A stretch of 64,000 bases of DNA from Acidobacteriota bacterium (GTDB lineage Bacteria; Acidobacteriota; Thermoanaerobaculia; Gp7-AA8), in the NCBI GenBank assembly GCA_003223645.1, contig QHVT01000015.1, forward strand, positions 1-64,000. Direction: 5' to 3'. Position numbers and translations under genes: made by a program. Positions 848-43,683 of the stretch are shown here, piece by piece. The notes beneath the pieces are model-generated. The model was not told the origin of the DNA. It worked only from the letters and a program-made list of their open reading frames with translations, and searched no databases. Positions within the stretch are counted from its first letter, which is position 1; every line of letters begins with the position of its first letter.

Positions 848-1306
848 CCTCAGTACTACGATCCCCTCGGACTTCCGCTGCACGGCGCTCGACTTCACCT
901 TCGGCTTATACGAGCCACCTCGTTGCGACAACAACTGCGCAGACGGACCTCCCGTGTTCCGCACTTCTCCTTCAACGCGTGCTGCGCCCCGTACCCCGGA
1001 GAGATCTCGTGCCCGTACATCTCCGGTCTTCGGAGCACGCGATGTTGCCTTCGCCGTGACATGAGCGGCTCGGCTCTCTCGTTGTGCATCTGTCGAGGCT
1101 GCAGGCTTCACTTCATGTTGCGGCCCGCGTTGTTGCTCCCTCCGCAGAGGCTTTCGACGTCCAGCTTCAGCAGCACCCATCTCTGCATGCGCTGTGGACC
1201 TGCTACCCGGCTCTCCGGCGATTACCGGGACGGGACTCTCACCCGCTGGAGAAGTGCAGCCTGAACCTCCGCTCCATTTCAGTCGCTTCGGTTCGTCACG
1301 GCGCAC
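1..1306 (-). mobile_element. Group II intron, 5' part, cut by window edge
   Basis: A retroelement read on the minus strand. Its 5' end is placed at 1306 because the minus strand there begins GTGCGCC, which fits the GTGYG start of group II introns. About 460 bases of non-coding sequence follow, which would hold the 5' RNA domains. They include a GTGAGAGTCCCG segment near 1215-1230, often seen in such introns. The reverse transcriptase gene then runs off the window. The catalytic domain V and the 3' end are not visible. The intron lies 2 bases from a perfect hairpin (1309-1340) next to the TPR gene stop codon. That placement is typical of group IIC introns, but the class cannot be fixed by eye. 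Confidence 0.8.
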
Positions 1307-1820: not shown

Positions 1821-2527
1821 CAGATTGCTTCGCGCGAGCGAAGGCGGTGAACGTAGCGCATGATCCGCTCGCGGTCCTCTTCCGTCGGGTCGAGAAAACG
1901 CATTCCGTATTTCGGCATGGAGCCGGAGAACTCCGCCCGCAGAATCTCCGCCAGGACCTGCAGCGGTTTCGGGTCGGCCGGCAGATAGAAATGGAGTCGC
2001 ACCGGTCCATCCTGCGGCAGCATCCGGTCCACCTCGACGAGCATGCCCGAGGAAGAGATGTTGACGCTGCGTGCGAGAACGAAGCGGCCGTTCTTCTCGA
2101 GCGAGATCTCGATCTTGGTGATCGTGCGCAGCTGGCGGCGAACGGGAATCCGCGTCAGCCGCTCGACCTTCTGATCGAGATCCGGTTTTTGCAGCGGACG
2201 AAAAATCACGTCGTTGCATCCGGCGGAGAGACAGAGGTCGCCGTGCTCCGAGCTCGCGCGGTCGCAGACGAGGAGCAGCGAGATCGCGCGCGTCTCATCG
2301 TCGGAGCGGATCTCGCGGCAGAACTCCGGCGCGCTCATGTCGAAGAGGTCGTAGCCGAAGATGATGAGGTTCGGCTTCTCCATCCGCGCTTTGGTGAGGC
2401 CGTCGGAGCCGGCCAGCGCGGTCATGATCTGCATGTCGCGGCGGCGGAGGATCGTCTCCTGGAACAGCAGCGCGCCGCGCGAATGATCGACCAGGAGAAT
2501 CGATCCGACGAGCGTCTGCTCTTTCAT
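1820..2527 (-). CDS. Receiver-like domain fused to PilZ domain
   Basis: A 235-residue cytosolic protein. Residues 1-120 look like a response regulator receiver fold (SILLVDHSRG, then LIIFGYDLFDM at the usual phospho-Asp strand). The conserved Lys near the end is replaced by Arg in VIFRPLQ, so phosphorylation may be lost. Residues 125-225 match PilZ, with the RRQLR arginine motif and NISSSG in place of DxSxxG, so cyclic-di-GMP binding is plausible. It overlaps the cysteine desulfurase stop by 4 bases and the TPR start by one, so the three genes probably form an operon. Its target is unknown. Confidence 0.8.
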   Translation of the reverse strand: MKEQTLVGSILLVDHSRGALLFQETILRRRDMQIMTALAGSDGLTKARMEKPNLIIFGYDLFDMSAPEFCREIRSDDETRAISLLLVCDRASSEHGDLCLSAGCNDVIFRPLQKPDLDQKVERLTRIPVRRQLRTITKIEISLEKNGRFVLARSVNISSSGMLVEVDRMLPQDGPVRLHFYLPADPKPLQVLAEILRAEFSGSMPKYGMRFLDPTEEDRERIMRYVHRLRSREAI

Positions 2528-3636
2528 GCCGCGGAGATCTCCCTCAGTTTTCGCACCACGCGCTTCAAGTCGTCAACGAGCATCGTGATCTGTTCCGCCG
2601 TGTTGGATTTTCCGAGACCAAACCGGATCGAGCCGATCGCCGCCGCGTCGCCGGCGCCGATCGCTTTTAAAACACGCGAGGGTCCGCGCTCCCCCGAACT
2701 GCACGCCGAGCCGGACGACAACGAGAAGCGTTTCATCGCGAGAATCAACGAGTCGGCCTCGATGCGGTCGAAGGAGACATTGAGATTTCCCGGTAATCTT
2801 AACTCCCGCGGGCCATTGATCGAAACGCCGTCGATCTCCGCGAGAATCAAATTCCTCAACGAATCGCGCAATTCGGCGAGCCGCACGGCCTCTTCGCCCA
2901 TCTCTTCCGCGCGCAGCTGGATCGCGGCGCCGAAGCCGACGACGCCCGGCACGTTGACCGTTCCGGCGTGAATGCCGCGCTCCTGTCCCCCGCCGATCAC
3001 GACCGGCTCGACGCGCCTTCCGCGGCGCACGAAGAGCGCGCCGATTCCTTTCGGGCCGTAGATCTTGTGCGCGGAGAACGACGCCATGTCGACGTTCGTG
3101 AGATCGACGGCGATCTTGCCGGCGGCCTGCGTCATGTCGGTGTGAAAGAGGACTTTGTGCTGATGACAGATGGCTGCGAGCTCGGCGAGCGGCTGAATCG
3201 TTCCGATCTCACCGTTCGCCGCTTCGATCGACACGAGCCGAGTCTCTTTGCGCATCGCCGCGCGCAACACTTCCGGCTGGATGACGCCTTCGTGATCGGG
3301 CGAGAGCAGCGTGACGTCCGAACCACGCTTTCGTAGTCGCTCGGCGAGCACGATGATCGACTTGTGCTCGATCGCGGTCGTGATGAAGTGCTCGCCGGCA
3401 TGCACAAGATTCAGTGCGATGTTGTTCGACTCGGTTGCGCCGGCCGTAAAGTAAATCTCCGGCGGCAGCACGCGGAAAAAGCGCGCGACGGCGATGCGCG
3501 CATCTTCGACGGCCTGCGATGCCTTCCGCCCATGCGCGTGCGTGATCGACGCCGGATTGCCGAAATGTTCGCTGAAAAACAGCAGCATCTTTTCGACCAC
3601 GCGCGGGTCGCAGGGGGTGGTGGCGTGGTGGTCCAT
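2524..3636 (-). CDS. Cysteine desulfurase, NifS/IscS family
   Basis: A PLP enzyme that removes sulfur from cysteine for Fe-S clusters or tRNA thiolation. The 370 residues show the N-terminal DHHATTP, AIEHKSII, the PLP lysine in SAHKIYGPKG, and the active cysteine loop SSGSACSSGERGPSRVL. Length is slightly short for the family. Homologues usually start a few residues earlier, and in-frame codons upstream give LINAPYY before the ATG at 3636. No standard start codon lies there before a stop, although GGAGG boxes occur 20-30 bases upstream. The true start is therefore uncertain. It is followed by the receiver-PilZ gene with a 4-base overlap. No Fe-S scaffold gene lies nearby. Confidence 0.92.
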   Translation of the reverse strand: MDHHATTPCDPRVVEKMLLFFSEHFGNPASITHAHGRKASQAVEDARIAVARFFRVLPPEIYFTAGATESNNIALNLVHAGEHFITTAIEHKSIIVLAERLRKRGSDVTLLSPDHEGVIQPEVLRAAMRKETRLVSIEAANGEIGTIQPLAELAAICHQHKVLFHTDMTQAAGKIAVDLTNVDMASFSAHKIYGPKGIGALFVRRGRRVEPVVIGGGQERGIHAGTVNVPGVVGFGAAIQLRAEEMGEEAVRLAELRDSLRNLILAEIDGVSINGPRELRLPGNLNVSFDRIEADSLILAMKRFSLSSGSACSSGERGPSRVLKAIGAGDAAAIGSIRFGLGKSNTAEQITMLVDDLKRVVRKLREISAA

Positions 3637-5759: not shown

Positions 5760-6915
5760 TCGTTCTCTTCACCTGGTCCGCAATGAAGTGCGCGGCGAAT
5801 GATTGCACGAGTTCCGGTGCAACGGCCACCGTCGCGCCTTCGCGGCGAATGTTTCCCGCCTGCACGGACGCGTCGCCGACGATGCTCGTCGCATTCGGCG
5901 CATTGGCGCCGACGACGAACGCGCGGCTCGCGTCGATCCACGGCGTTGCCTTCGCCGCGTCCCGCACCTGCCCGGTCAGCCGGCGCGCGATGACGATCGC
6001 GACGCGCGCGGTGCGCACCAGCTCCGCGCGTGCATCGTTCCAGGCGTACGGCTCGTCATCGAGCCAGACGACGAGCGGCAGTTTCTCGTTGTACTGCATG
6101 TCGCGCGGGCGCAGCACGATCGCCTCCGGCGCGATCGATTCGACTTCGACGTCGAGCGTCACCGCCGGCTGCGTCGCGAGCTTCCGGTCGCCGCCGTCGT
6201 ACTTCATCACCTCGATGCGATCCGATGCGTCCGGCGTCGAGTACACGACCGCGAACTTCTCCCCTTTCGGATCCCAGCCCAGCGCCTCGACTCGCGCGCC
6301 GGAAAAATCCGCCATGACTTGCGCCGACGTCGGGATGTGCACGGTGCGCACGAAGTCGCCGCCTTTCGAGTGCACGACGTAGCTGATCTTGTTGCCGCGC
6401 GGCGCCCACTGCACCGCGACTTCGTCCGCCGGATCGGCGGGCACCCAGCTGATCGGACTACCGTCCGTCGACACGAGCCCGATGTCGAAGCCGTTGTCCT
6501 TCTTCGCCGAGAACGCGACTTCACCGCGCGACTCGGAGACATCGAACGAGTCGATCGCCTTGAACGCCGGCGTGAGCTCGTGATCGCCGCGCACGATGCG
6601 ATTGTTGTCGACGCGCACATCGCTCGTGCGCAGCGGTTGCAATGCGGTCGTCACCTTGTCGTCGGCATCGAGCTGCACCGCGCGAATGCGCGGTGCGTGC
6701 GGGACGTCGCGCCAGGAGGGAGGGAGGCTTGGGAGTGCGGTAGCGCAAGCGACCGCTGTTAAAAGCGGCAGCGTCGCTGCCGCAGTCCAAAGCCCCCGGA
6801 CCCAAGCCCGCTTCCGCGCCCGGGGCGGGGGGATGGAGTCGCTTCGCTCCCCCACCCCGGGCTCGGAAGCGGGCTCGGGCTCGGGCTCGGGGCGTTGTCT
6901 AGAACGCAGCCGCAT
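5743..6915 (-). CDS. Predicted secreted beta-propeller protein with repeat-derived N-terminus
   Basis: The body resembles PD40/TolB-type propeller blades (FDIGLVSTDGSP, VAVQWAPRGNKISYV, VEALGWDPKGEKFAVVY). A hydrophobic segment LPLLTAVACATALP looks like a signal peptide with a possible lipid-attachment Cys. The first 35 or so residues (PEPEPEPASEPGVGE and [10 protein letters not shown]) are translated from a GC-rich palindrome at 6806-6892. ATG 6915 overlaps the end of pruA by 17 bases. No better ATG lies between the palindrome and the signal peptide, so the gene may start at a rare codon or may truly include the repeat. Substrate and role are unknown. Confidence 0.65.
   Translation of the reverse strand: MRLRSRQRPEPEPEPASEPGVGERSDSIPPPRARKRAWVRGLWTAAATLPLLTAVACATALPSLPPSWRDVPHAPRIRAVQLDADDKVTTALQPLRTSDVRVDNNRIVRGDHELTPAFKAIDSFDVSESRGEVAFSAKKDNGFDIGLVSTDGSPISWVPADPADEVAVQWAPRGNKISYVVHSKGGDFVRTVHIPTSAQVMADFSGARVEALGWDPKGEKFAVVYSTPDASDRIEVMKYDGGDRKLATQPAVTLDVEVESIAPEAIVLRPRDMQYNEKLPLVVWLDDEPYAWNDARAELVRTARVAIVIARRLTGQVRDAAKATPWIDASRAFVVGANAPNATSIVGDASVQAGNIRREGATVAVAPELVQSFAAHFIADQVKRTNGSSR
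6806..6892. repeat. GC palindrome family D, copy 1
   Basis: The left arm is CCCGCTTCCGCGCCCGGGGC and the right arm is CACCCCGGGCTCGGAAGCGG followed by GCTCGGGC repeats. The centre reads GAGTCGCTTCGCTC. The same plan occurs at 23191-23330 and 60180-60270. This copy lies in the reading frame of the propeller-like gene. Confidence 0.85.
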
Positions 6916-39743: not shown

Positions 39744-40270
39744 TCGACATGAACGGGCACGAGCAGCCGTCGCGCGCCGGTATTTCCGAACCACCCCACC
39801 ATTTCCTGGACGGCATCGAATTGCAGCTCGTAGTCCCCTGCCGACGGCGGCGCCGTAATGACCGCGGGAATGGTCTGCCACTGTTCCGGAGGCAGCGACG
39901 CGGTGAGATTGAATCGCGACAGGAAACCGGGGCAATCGATGCCGTGCGCACCGCACCAGCGATGGCTGATGCGCACGGAGAATTGTCCGCGCCGATAGGC
40001 CGGAGTCGACTCCGCTGCGGGCCAGAGCTCGTCGCCGGCGTTGCGGACTTCAACGCCGAGGGAGAGCGTCATGCCGTGCGCGATGCGCGGGGGAAGGACT
40101 AGCGGCTTCCACTGAATTTTCATCCCCGACGGCGACAGCAATGCAGGAGTCGGAGCCGTCGATGTCGCCGCGATCCGCGCGGGCCCGTGACCCGGCCGCC
40201 GGCCGCACGCAGAGCCTACGGTCAGGACGCAGACAGCGATCCCCACAATGACGCAGTCGCGGACTGTCAT
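39740..40270 (-). CDS. Predicted lipoprotein of the YfhO operon
   Basis: A 176-residue exported protein. The N-terminus TVRDCVIVGIAVCVLTVGSA is a signal sequence ending in a cysteine, a possible lipid-attachment site although the -3 position is atypical. The body forms an immunoglobulin-like beta sandwich by eye (LSLGVEVRNAGDELWPA, YELQFDAVQEMVGWFGN). Similar small domains occur at the ends of some glycosyltransferases. ATG 40270 is preferred over 40330, which lies within the divergent spacer. It is the first gene of a four-gene minus-strand operon. Confidence 0.65.
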   Translation of the reverse strand: MTVRDCVIVGIAVCVLTVGSACGRRPGHGPARIAATSTAPTPALLSPSGMKIQWKPLVLPPRIAHGMTLSLGVEVRNAGDELWPAAESTPAYRRGQFSVRISHRWCGAHGIDCPGFLSRFNLTASLPPEQWQTIPAVITAPPSAGDYELQFDAVQEMVGWFGNTGARRLLVPVHVE

Positions 40271-40340
40271 GAGCGGGCTGAATCGTAGCCGAACGCTACC
40301 TGCCGTGCTAGACTCGCGCGCCAATTTCAACCGTCCCTCG

Positions 40341-42608
40341 ATGATGTCCTCTCACGATCTGAACTCTCGCTTCACAGGAGTGCGTTGTCTCGTCACCGGC
40401 GGCGCCGGTTTCATCGGCAGCAATCTCTCGCGCGCGCTCGCGGCGGCGGGCGCGAAGGTGACGGTGCTCGATGATCTCTCGACCGGGAGTCTCGACAATC
40501 TCGCCGACGTCCCGCAGGCAGGAATGCCTGCGCCACATCAATCGAACATCCGTTTCGTGCGCGGCGGCGTCGCCGACTCGCCGCAACTGCGCGAGCTCGT
40601 GCGCGACAGCGACTACGTCTTTCACATGGCCGCGCAAGTCGGCAACGTGAAGTCGATCGAGTTTCCGGTCTCCGACGCGCAGTCGAACATCCTCGGCACA
40701 GTGCGCGTGCTCGACGCCGCGCGCGGGTCGAGCGTGAAGCGCATCGTCTATTCCAGCTCGTCCGCGATTTTCGGAGAAGCGGAGCGGCTGCCGATCGACG
40801 AGTCGCATCCGCAGCGGCCGGCGAGCTTCTATGCATTGAGCAAACAGACCGGCGAAAAGTACGCGCTGCTCGCCGCGTCGCTCTGGAACGTGCCGGCGGT
40901 GTGTCTCCGCTATTTCAATGTCTATGGCTTCCCGTCGGAAGAGAGCGACTACAGCGGGGTCATTTCGATCTTCTTTCGCCGTCTCGGCGAAAACCAGCCG
41001 CTGATCATTTACGGCGACGGCGAGCAGTCGCGCGACTTCGTCTATGTGCTCGACGTCGTCAACGCGCTCATGCGCGCGGCGACTGCCGGAACGCCGGGCG
41101 AGGTCTACAACATCGGCACCGGCAAAGCGTCGACGATCAACGACGTCGCCGCGGCCGCGATGTACGCGACCGGCAAGACCACGACGATCGAAAAGCGCGA
41201 CTCACGCGCCGGCGAAGTGCGTGACAGCGTCGCCGACATCTCGAAAGCACAGCGCGACCTCGGCTATCAACCGCAATACGACTTGCGCAGCGGACTGCGC
41301 GAGTACTGGACGCGGATGGAGGAATCCAGACGCCGTCATCCTGAGTCGGCGAAGCACGACGAAGGATCTCAAAATGCGCAAACGCCTGCCATTTCGAGAT
41401 CCTTCGCTGTCTCCGCGGCTCAGGATGACGTGAAGATTCTCGTGCTCATTCAACACGGCGACGATCGCGAGCTGCTCACGCGCTTCCGCTTCGAGGCATT
41501 CAATTCTCAGCCGGTCATGGTGGATTCGCCCGGCGACTACGGCGCATTTCGCGAGCTGCTGCGCGAACAGAAGCCGGCCGCGTGTCTGTCGCTGTCGTCG
41601 GGAACCGCTGCCGGATTGCTCGCGCTGGCGTGCGAGAGCGAGCGCGTGCCGATGTTCTCGGTGATTGCGAGCGCAGCGGAGCTGGACGCGATTCCGATCG
41701 CGGACGCCGATCCGCCGCGCACGTTTTTCCTCGGCGCACGCGACGTCGTCGTGCGCGCGCTTTCCGACGCGCGGTACGGACGCACGCTCCTGCCAACGGG
41801 ACATCCGCGCGATGAAGGCGCAGCCGATCGCATGCTGCAAGCGATCCGTTCTGCCGGTCAGCACGTTGACGATCGTCCGCAGCTGAGCGTCGTCGTGCCG
41901 GCGTACAAAGAGTCCGGCAATCTCGATCTCGTCTGCGACCGTCTCCTCGGCGTGTTCGACCGCGACGACGTGTCGGCGGAGATTCTGCTCATCGACGACT
42001 CGAGTCCGGACGACACGTACGAAGTGGCGGTGCGGCAGATGTGGAAGTCGCCGCGCATCCGCGCGTTCACGAAGCCGACGCCGCGCGGGATGGGCAATGC
42101 GATTCAGTATGGCATCGACCGCGCGCGCGCGCCGATCGTCGGCATCACGATGGGCGACGGCTCGGACCAGGTGGAGCGCCTTCCGGAGATGTACCGCAAG
42201 GTCGCGAACGAAGGATACGGACTGGTCATCGGGTCGCGTTATCGCGCGAAGGAAAACTACGAAGCGGTGCCGCGTCTCTATCGCTTTTGGAGCCGCTGTT
42301 TTCGTCTGACCGCGTGGGCGGTCGTCGGCGTTCGACTCAGTGATTACACGAACGCCTTTCGCGTGTTCGACCGCCGCATCTTCGCGCGCTATGGCCCGGA
42401 AAGCGGCGGCTTCGAGATCTCGCCGGAAATTACGTTCAAGGCATGGTTCGCGACCAAGCGCGTCGGCGAATTGGACGTGCGCCATCTCAAACGCACGTCG
42501 GGACAGAGCAAGTTCTCGTTCTTGCGCGCGGGACCGGGATACGGAAAGATACTGTTCAAGGCGTTCGTGAACCGGCTCACGGGCCGTTGGTTCACGCTCG
42601 ACTGGTAA
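40341..42608 (+). CDS. Sugar epimerase fused to glycosyltransferase through a repeat-derived linker
   Basis: A 755-residue fusion. Residues 1-330 are an extended SDR (CLVTGGAGFIGSNLSRAL, SSSAIFGEAERLPIDES, FYALSKQTGEKYALL). Residues 332-363 are encoded by a family B palindrome. Residues 364-512 form an unassigned domain with LVLIQHGDDRELLTRF at its start. Residues 514-755 are a DPM1-type GT2 (SVVVPAYKESGNLDLV, LIDDSSPDDTYEVA, GITMGDGSDQVERL). ATG 40341 or 40344 starts the epimerase. A GTG at 41430 (GTGAAGATTCTC) could also start the second half separately, as the gene at 42757 starts with the same GTGAAGATTCT. Whether one or two proteins are made is unknown. Confidence 0.82.
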   Translation: MMSSHDLNSRFTGVRCLVTGGAGFIGSNLSRALAAAGAKVTVLDDLSTGSLDNLADVPQAGMPAPHQSNIRFVRGGVADSPQLRELVRDSDYVFHMAAQVGNVKSIEFPVSDAQSNILGTVRVLDAARGSSVKRIVYSSSSAIFGEAERLPIDESHPQRPASFYALSKQTGEKYALLAASLWNVPAVCLRYFNVYGFPSEESDYSGVISIFFRRLGENQPLIIYGDGEQSRDFVYVLDVVNALMRAATAGTPGEVYNIGTGKASTINDVAAAAMYATGKTTTIEKRDSRAGEVRDSVADISKAQRDLGYQPQYDLRSGLREYWTRMEESRRRHPESAKHDEGSQNAQTPAISRSFAVSAAQDDVKILVLIQHGDDRELLTRFRFEAFNSQPVMVDSPGDYGAFRELLREQKPAACLSLSSGTAAGLLALACESERVPMFSVIASAAELDAIPIADADPPRTFFLGARDVVVRALSDARYGRTLLPTGHPRDEGAADRMLQAIRSAGQHVDDRPQLSVVVPAYKESGNLDLVCDRLLGVFDRDDVSAEILLIDDSSPDDTYEVAVRQMWKSPRIRAFTKPTPRGMGNAIQYGIDRARAPIVGITMGDGSDQVERLPEMYRKVANEGYGLVIGSRYRAKENYEAVPRLYRFWSRCFRLTAWAVVGVRLSDYTNAFRVFDRRIFARYGPESGGFEISPEITFKAWFATKRVGELDVRHLKRTSGQSKFSFLRAGPGYGKILFKAFVNRLTGRWFTLDW
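41334..41430. repeat. Palindrome family B, copy in frame between two domains
   Basis: CGTCATCCTGAGTCGGCGAA pairs with CGCGGCTCAGGATGACG, with GACGAAGGATCTC against GAGATCCTTCGCTGTC inside. It contains no stop codon in the frame of the flanking gene and joins an epimerase to a glycosyltransferase. Confidence 0.93.
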
Positions 42609-42620
42609 ATGGGGATAGAC

Positions 42621-42716
42621 CGTCATCCTGAGTCGGCGAAGCGCGACGAAGGATCTCGGGATGCGAAAGATCTGCAATTTTGAGATCCTTCGCCGTCTAC
42701 GCGGCTCAGGATGACG
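42621..42716. repeat. Palindrome family B, intergenic copy
   Basis: CGTCATCCTGAGTCGGCGAA pairs with a right arm ending CGGCTCAGGATGACG. Its loop GGGATGCGAAAGATCTGC is close to that of the copy at 41334. It lies 12 bases after the end of the fusion gene. Confidence 0.93.
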
Positions 42717-42756: not shown

Positions 42757-43683
42757 GTGAAGATTCTGGTTACCGGCGGTTTGGGCGCGGTGGGTTCGCC
42801 GCTCGTGGCGCAGCTGCGCGGCCGCGGACACGAAGTGTGGGTGCTCGACCGCCCGCATCATCACGGACTCAACGGCCATTATTACTTCCGCGCCGACGTC
42901 GGCGAATTCCGGCAGGTCGAAAACGTGATGGAGCAGGTGAAATTCGACTTCGTCTATCACGCCGCCGCTGAATTCGGCCGCATCAACGGCGAGGATTTCT
43001 ACGAGACGTTGTGGCGCTCCAATGCCGTCGGCACGAAGAACATGATCCGGCTGCAGGAGCGCCATCGCTATCGCATGGTCGTGTTCTCCAGTTCCGAGAT
43101 TTACGGCGACTGGGACGATCTGATGCTCGAGGACACACCCAATGAGCATCCGATCAAGCAGATGAACGACTATGCGATCTCGAAATGGGTCAATGAGCTG
43201 CAGGTCTACAACTCCGCGGCCGTCAACGGCACCGAGACCGTCATCGTGCGTCTGTTCAATACCTACGGGCCGGGAGAGCCGTACAGTGACTATCGCAGCG
43301 TGATCTGCAAGTTCATCTATTCGGCATTGCACGACCTCCCCTACACCGTTTATCTCAATCACCACCGCACGTCGTCGTACATCGACGACACGAGCCGGAC
43401 GCTGGCAAACATCTCCGAGAAATTCCGCGCTGGGCGCGTCTACAACATCGCCGGCGGCACGTATCACGACATCAAATCGATCTCCGACACGATCCTTCGC
43501 CTCTGCGGGAAAACCGACAAACTGGTGAAGTACGTCGACTACGAGGTCCACAATACCCGTGACAAGAGGACGTCCGCGGCGCGGGCGATCGAAGAGATCG
43601 ACCACCGCGAGACGGTCGGCCTGGAGGAAGGCATTGCACGAACCATCGACTGGCAGAAACAGTACTACGGCGCCGGCCGTTGA
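42757..43683 (+). CDS. NAD-dependent sugar epimerase/dehydratase
   Basis: A 308-residue extended SDR. ILVTGGLGAVGSPLVAQL is the cofactor loop, VVFSSSEIYGDWDD holds the catalytic Ser, and DYAISKWVNEL holds the Tyr and Lys. RLFNTYGPGEPYSDYRSVIC matches the nucleotide-sugar 4-epimerase/dehydratase type. GTG 42757 is the only sensible start. It is followed after 16 bases by the UDP-ManNAc dehydrogenase. Exact substrate is unknown. Confidence 0.9.
   Translation: MKILVTGGLGAVGSPLVAQLRGRGHEVWVLDRPHHHGLNGHYYFRADVGEFRQVENVMEQVKFDFVYHAAAEFGRINGEDFYETLWRSNAVGTKNMIRLQERHRYRMVVFSSSEIYGDWDDLMLEDTPNEHPIKQMNDYAISKWVNELQVYNSAAVNGTETVIVRLFNTYGPGEPYSDYRSVICKFIYSALHDLPYTVYLNHHRTSSYIDDTSRTLANISEKFRAGRVYNIAGGTYHDIKSISDTILRLCGKTDKLVKYVDYEVHNTRDKRTSAARAIEEIDHRETVGLEEGIARTIDWQKQYYGAGR

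Follow-up and report, generated by a model that had tools for sequence, protein, structure and literature searches.

Among the palindromic repeats described in bacteria, the closest to the element considered here are the CGTC-tagged REPs, which occur mostly as head-to-head dimers without a transposase and include RPE-4 and RPE-6 of R. conorii (Di Nocera et al. 2013, PMC3733652); copies of these repeats inside genes are reported in the same paper. RPEs are palindromic repeats that lie in frame in unrelated protein genes and are read as an extra peptide segment (PMC3733652, PMC10969869, PMC2229807). ORF fusions have also been described for MITEs of the ERIC/RU-1, RU-2, RU-3, and Correia types (Delihas 2007, PMC2759123, PMC2229807) and are taken up again in a 2024 review (PMC10969869). 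In the portions of these sources available to us, the MITEs give residues to ORFs, one case loses its normal stop, and the elements are proposed as a source of new proteins; however, they join one gene or conserved domain, sometimes together with a spacer, and not two genes. In-frame insertion of such palindromes is known behavior, and a two-gene outcome is unusual: the open-access literature yielded no report of two whole adjacent genes joined by such a repeat, most subscription papers lying outside that search, and among the matches listed for an 11-base stretch of the repeat, the papers were unrelated by title and abstract.

The locus described here lies in a 64,000-nt stretch of DNA from an Acidobacteriota bacterium (contig QHVT01000015.1, positions 1 to 64,000; hereafter the window). 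An earlier note on this DNA placed a palindrome between an SDR epimerase and a second coding part and described the two as linked by a 32-residue peptide with no stop. The exact span of the palindrome, its fold, and its repeat status are all confirmed, and the frame runs uninterrupted through the element (Table 1). The element begins with CGTCATCC and finishes with GGATGACG, folds at -61.5 kcal/mol (z -8.7; 0 of 200 shuffles equally stable), is free of stops in 2 of its 3 frames, and encodes in the frame of the epimerase the 32 residues RHPESAKHDEGSQNAQTPAISRSFAVSAAQDD. The hairpin was also considered as an intrinsic terminator and rejected as such, there being no T run 3' of it. A probable history is that separate epimerase and GT2 operon genes, both of sugar metabolism, the stop of the one and the start of the other overlapping as GTGA, were fused when a 97-nt CGTC-type REP dimer inserted exactly at that overlap. 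Its length (97 = 1 mod 3) would have shifted the former TGA out of the reading frame and set epimerase and glycosyltransferase (GT) in the same frame. The outcome would be one ORF in which the repeat supplies 32 linker residues between epimerase and GT, and its expected main product would be one bifunctional polypeptide with a mass of about 83 kDa.

Table 1. Coordinates of the features discussed (window positions, or positions within the named locus)
Feature	Position	Strand	Remarks
Group II intron domain match	1113-1248	-	RF02003, 95.5 bits
Continuous fused ORF	40248..42608	+	786 residues from longest possible start; no internal stop
SDR (NAD-dependent epimerase/dehydratase) part, complete	40341..41333	+	from alignment to separate homologues
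Palindromic repeat, head-to-head dimer with CGTC-tagged arms	41334..41430	.	97 nt
AGGA, possible ribosome-binding site for GTG 41430	41422..41425	+	putative function
TGA directly 3' of element	41431..41433	+	overlaps GTG start as GTGA
Family-2 glycosyltransferase (GT) part	41430..42608	+	GTG start, stop TAA 42606-42608
Second copy of the same repeat family	42621..42716	.	96 nt; in spacer between GT and next gene, genes stay unfused
Next cluster gene, GTG start	42757..43683	+	SDR-like by sequence reading; same order in L039
Element in L063 (G000:C3:4160-9160)	2496-2589		94 nt; YfhO-family gene
Element in L148 (G000:C46:33051-38051)	2496-2590		caspase-type peptidase, in frame
Genes ending at element TGA			L110, L131, L134, L081, L087, L111, L112, L137, L141, L145, L071, L117, L118, L121

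The element belongs to an abundant repeat family. Its arm pattern occurs 94 times in forward and 95 times in reverse orientation in the 6.38-Mb genome, where a reversed control pattern gives 0 and 0, and it is matched in 26 of 60 genomes, own included, with 0 matches in the same-genus genome G001 and 408 in G010. From 96 stretches around listed copies, taken as a large sample of the genome's copies and not all of them, a profile search recovered 123 non-overlapping places, 72 of which carry both canonical ends (full copies). By our own gene calls, which give a coding fraction of 0.887 in the sampled stretches, 66 of these full copies are intergenic, 48 between same-strand genes, 10 between convergent and 8 between divergent ones. 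The earlier statement that the element elsewhere lies between genes therefore fits these 66, but not the 5 copies inside ORFs (the window copy included), and one further copy sits at a contig edge. Only one of the 51 places without both canonical ends falls inside a called gene (L097), and it was rejected as an in-gene copy, since its frame looks spurious. Among 50 elements sampled from G007 and G012, a single possible in-gene arm was seen, in L190 (5784-5825, G007), an RNase R-like ORF with one arm-like stretch read as VILSGGDREGSL, which may be an insertion or chance. Over both strands of the 72 full copies (144 readings), stops are absent from the first frame in 83, from the second in 62, and from the third in 1. 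Fourteen upstream genes stop at a TGA that the element itself carries (CGTCATCCTGA), and in 6 cases a gene is called as starting at the element's ATG.

In its architecture this family shares several traits with the CGTC-tagged REPs. The tag itself is conserved, with 53 of 54 aligned two-armed copies beginning and 52 of 54 ending with the sequences found at the edges of the window copy, and in single-arm folds of the two consensus arms the four tag bases are unpaired and outside the stem. Outer A-T pairs are likewise shared, the window family pairing ATCCT with AGGAT. Head-to-head dimers are common to both: 64 of 109 exact-pattern places are paired and 45 single, although the latter may have a diverged partner. 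Both also lack a flanking tyrosine transposase, as a Y1_Tnp search gave one match in the genome, and the 3.3-kb stretch around this match contains none of four element motifs. This sole Y1_Tnp gene without a flanking element, together with the CGTC tag, sets the family apart from GTAG-type REPs with a dedicated RAYT. The dimensions differ, however. In the available description of the CGTC-tagged REPs the stem is 8-9 bp, the loop 4-5 bp, and the 3-nt tail mostly CCA, whereas the arms of the window family are longer (35-37 nt), have an interrupted stem, and carry the consensus tail CTC. The consensus arms are imperfect hairpins, with 5 bp, a 2x2 internal loop, and then 4 bp in arm 2, or 4 plus 2 bp with a bulge after the internal loop in arm 1, and with terminal loops of 6 and 3 nt. 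Because stem, loop, and tail depart in this way, the element is best called CGTC-REP-like, and none of the four families compared by description was assigned. A further difference is that the window copy joins two complete adjacent genes, an arrangement without counterpart in the available text of PMC3733652, in whose main text the word 'fusion' occurs 0 times.

As far as alignment with homologues tells, neither half of the fused ORF is truncated, epimerase and GT both being complete. Translated from ATG 40341, a likely epimerase start chosen by comparison with homologues, the ORF would give 755 residues and 83 kDa, and Pfam places an Epimerase domain at residues 48-290 (1e-58) and Glycos_transf_2 at residues 547-715 (3.6e-21) of the fused ORF. 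The epimerase part is 57 % identical to its counterparts in L041 and L039, two relatives described below, and ends 1 residue short of the former and 6 short of the latter. The GT part, the first G of whose GTG start is supplied by the element, is 55 % identical to that of L041 with the N-domain included and 70 % identical to that of L039, which has no N-domain. This N-terminal domain of about 145 residues (41430-41861) has no Pfam match and is present in 2 of 396 phylum genomes, its own being one of them; since the L039 orthologue lacks it, only L041 speaks for its presence in the ancestor. Alignment of the GT with L041 begins at the first residues, the N-domain of L041 having some extra ones. 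With hexamer scores trained on the long ORFs of this genome, the coding signal stands at 0.60 in the epimerase body, 0.48-0.60 in the GT, and 0.75 in the first 40 GT codons, and falls to -0.19 inside the element; on either side no other frame exceeds 0.19, and the signal keeps to the same frame up to both element edges.

These measures also bear on whether the locus is decaying or unexpressed, in which case the fusion would be without consequence. The GT is patchy, 3 of 396 phylum genomes, its own among them, giving a GT-domain match at E <= 1e-40, and this would suit such a fate; yet the two domains run to full length and use codons as coding DNA does, the ORF has no other stop or frameshift, and the following cluster genes are full-length open reading frames, all of which make decay improbable.

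The earlier note also pointed to the start of the second coding part, GTGAAGATTCT, as nearly the same as that of the gene at 42757, and 11 of 12 nt indeed agree. Little weight is given to this likeness because both sequences encode MKIL, in both genes what reads as the beginning of a Rossmann-type strand. Duplication as its source was rejected on the same ground, the L039 gene also starting with ATGAAGATTCT. An AlphaFold2 model of the GT, set aside as weak (mean pLDDT 51.3, alignment of three), places a strand at residues 2-7, following the GTG start.

Relatives with split genes, a check that the note had proposed, do exist. The comparison covered two relatives that carry the gene pair, L041 (G218, same phylum) and L039 (a Holophagales MAG), both distant from the window at 55-72 % identity. 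Each lacks the element and has epimerase and GT in separate frames overlapping as GTGA (stop TGA 1292-1294 and GTG 1291 in L041; stop 5990-5992 and GTG 5989 in L039). By reading of ORF translations, L039 continues with a gene like that at 42757 of the window and then one like that at 43559. A third GT relative, in G147, is 40 % identical, and a GT search of 60 genomes, own included, gave no orthologue at useful identity, the best-scoring matches outside the own genome reaching 33-34 %. When the flanks of the window copy are joined without the 97 nt, TGA follows immediately after ...YWTRMEESRR, the expected end of the epimerase. The TGA next to the element is thus probably the former epimerase stop, still present and shifted out of frame. 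The gene fusion is well supported at the DNA level.

Besides the window copy, four full copies are found in frame within ORFs (L063, L148, L079, and L146). The L063 insert is absent from the orthologue in the same-genus genome G001 (57 % identity), where the alignment has a 29-residue gap. In L148 the palindrome sits inside the catalytic domain, upstream of the SGHG motif, and the insert is absent in 8 of 8 homologous loci examined, three further loci with C-terminal pieces only having been left out; the caspase domain is 41-42 residues longer there than in homologues, of which the element alone accounts for 33. L079 (97 nt) and L146 have no Pfam match and are membrane proteins by reading, and their copies are read, from frame and codon bias, as interrupting single genes; no homologue of L079 was found among 20 genomes searched other than itself. 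With in-frame insertions in unrelated genes that are absent from homologues, as in L063 and L148, the repeat behaves like the coding palindromes of Rickettsia, a likeness in mode of working and not in family membership. In the available accounts, RPEs decorate single genes, whereas the window copy bridges the stop/start junction of two genes, in a host that is not Rickettsia.

The in-frame copies raise the question of how much DNA such an event adds. The L063 gene stays in frame around an element of 94 nt, so its net insertion must be 93 or 96 and not 94, and joining its flanks naively likewise yields a junction TGA, there a false stop. L063 and L079 (94 and 97 nt) would both fit a net length of the element minus one. 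Under this rule the net insertion in the window would be 96 nt and the empty site, having no stop, would already read through, such that the two genes would have been joined in frame beforehand and the element would have entered the linker later with the frame unchanged. There is little to recommend this order of events, as the GTGA overlap in separate frames in both relatives argues against a read-through empty site, though the relatives are distant. A stop-distance test on 15 genes running into an element (14 ending in one plus the window gene) also favors the full element length, if weakly at this sample size. Removal of the exact element length L leaves the nearest stop at a median of 35 nt, whereas L-2, L-1, L+1, and L+2 give 62-199 nt, and L-3 and L+3, which keep the frame of L, give 29-47 nt. 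Stops in the junction codon arise in 4 of 15 genes with L, 3 of 15 with L-1 (right side), and 6 of 15 with L-3 (left side); the count alone leaves the boundary unfixed because L-1 and L-3 give similar or higher values. An insertion at the GTGA overlap is still preferred, with a net gain that would be 96 or 97 nt.

A search for empty sites by joined flanks returned one candidate (L067 vs L097), too repetitive to fix boundaries. L067 and L097:350-440 carry another repeat family with GGCAGAAG/CTTCTGCC units in inverted arrays, which flanks the palindrome in L067. In L145, L117, and L121, removal of the element re-creates TAG or TAA over the junction, as if the insertion had occurred in a stop codon.

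Element length proves decisive for the outcome at the junction. Each of the 72 full copies was placed there in silico in both orientations, and the 144 substitutions gave fusion in 33 cases, a tailed epimerase ending at TGA in 50, and a stop inside the element in 61. These outcomes are explained by length: at 1 mod 3 the genes fuse in 33 of 42 substitutions, at 0 mod 3 the epimerase ends at the retained TGA in 50 of 66 and inside the element in 16, and at 2 mod 3 a stop falls inside in 36 of 36. The length of the element thus works as a random switch between a fused gene and two separate ones, and fusion is a common chance outcome that needs no selection. Copies of 97 nt fuse the genes in 21 of 24 substitutions. 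Changing one nucleotide of the element would be enough to separate the genes again, and a single-base error would mean two genes. Should the true element be 96 nt, through assembly error or polymorphism, the epimerase would gain a tail of about 32 residues and stop at TGA 41431-41433, leaving the GT as a separate gene. It is true that 96 nt is the most frequent length, with 21 of 72 full copies compared with 12 of 72 for 97 nt, and the 96-nt copies placed at the junction end at TGA in 36 of 42 substitutions and inside the element in 6, and never fuse. Yet copies of 97 nt and loops of 27 nt recur in the genome, 97 nt being on that account an ordinary length, and a true length of 96 nt at this site is very unlikely.

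A weightier alternative, unlikely but the most serious of those considered, accepts the open frame and predicts two proteins nonetheless, with the GT made from a new start at GTG 41430 or from a transcript cut at the hairpin and read-through as a minor product. The GTG start and its GTGA context are kept as in the relatives, AGGA stands 4 nt upstream of the GTG, and the hairpin could slow ribosomes or be cleaved, the cleavage of REP or MITE hairpins being discussed in available parts of earlier work (PMC3733652, PMC2229807). Against this, the spacing of the AGGA is short, and the motif lies within an element arm, where it is paired in the hairpin with an unpaired probability of about 0 in the local fold; AGGA and the first base (G) of the GTG pair with a probability near 1, and separate initiation of the GT therefore looks poor. 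Termination-reinitiation at GTG 41430 cannot work, as no in-frame stop precedes it. With no termination at the junction and the only evident GT start signal buried in a very stable hairpin, a single polypeptide would be expected.

The suggestion of the earlier note that repeats may create multidomain proteins is borne out by this locus as a fusion in DNA, but not as a recurrent event, since only the window copy joins two genes among the 49 full copies at same-strand positions (the 48 called as tandem and the window copy). A broader role, in which CGTC-type REP dimers, thanks to open frames and varying length, would serve as ready-made in-frame linkers that on insertion at a stop/start overlap weld operon genes into a functional bifunctional enzyme (in the window a sugar-nucleotide epimerase tethered to a GT), with one-nucleotide changes in the loop switching between fused and separate states, is doubtful.

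The usual explanation for a gene fusion is that the DNA separating two genes was deleted. At this locus the evidence points to a one-step fusion by insertion of a small repeat, which would have left both proteins whole and supplied the linker between them. The locus also calls for caution in annotation, as a single base in a repeat decides whether one gene or two are called. If the fused protein is made, the locus would show directly how a mobile palindrome can build a multidomain enzyme, and the 'coding palindrome' behavior of the Rickettsia type would extend to another bacterial group.
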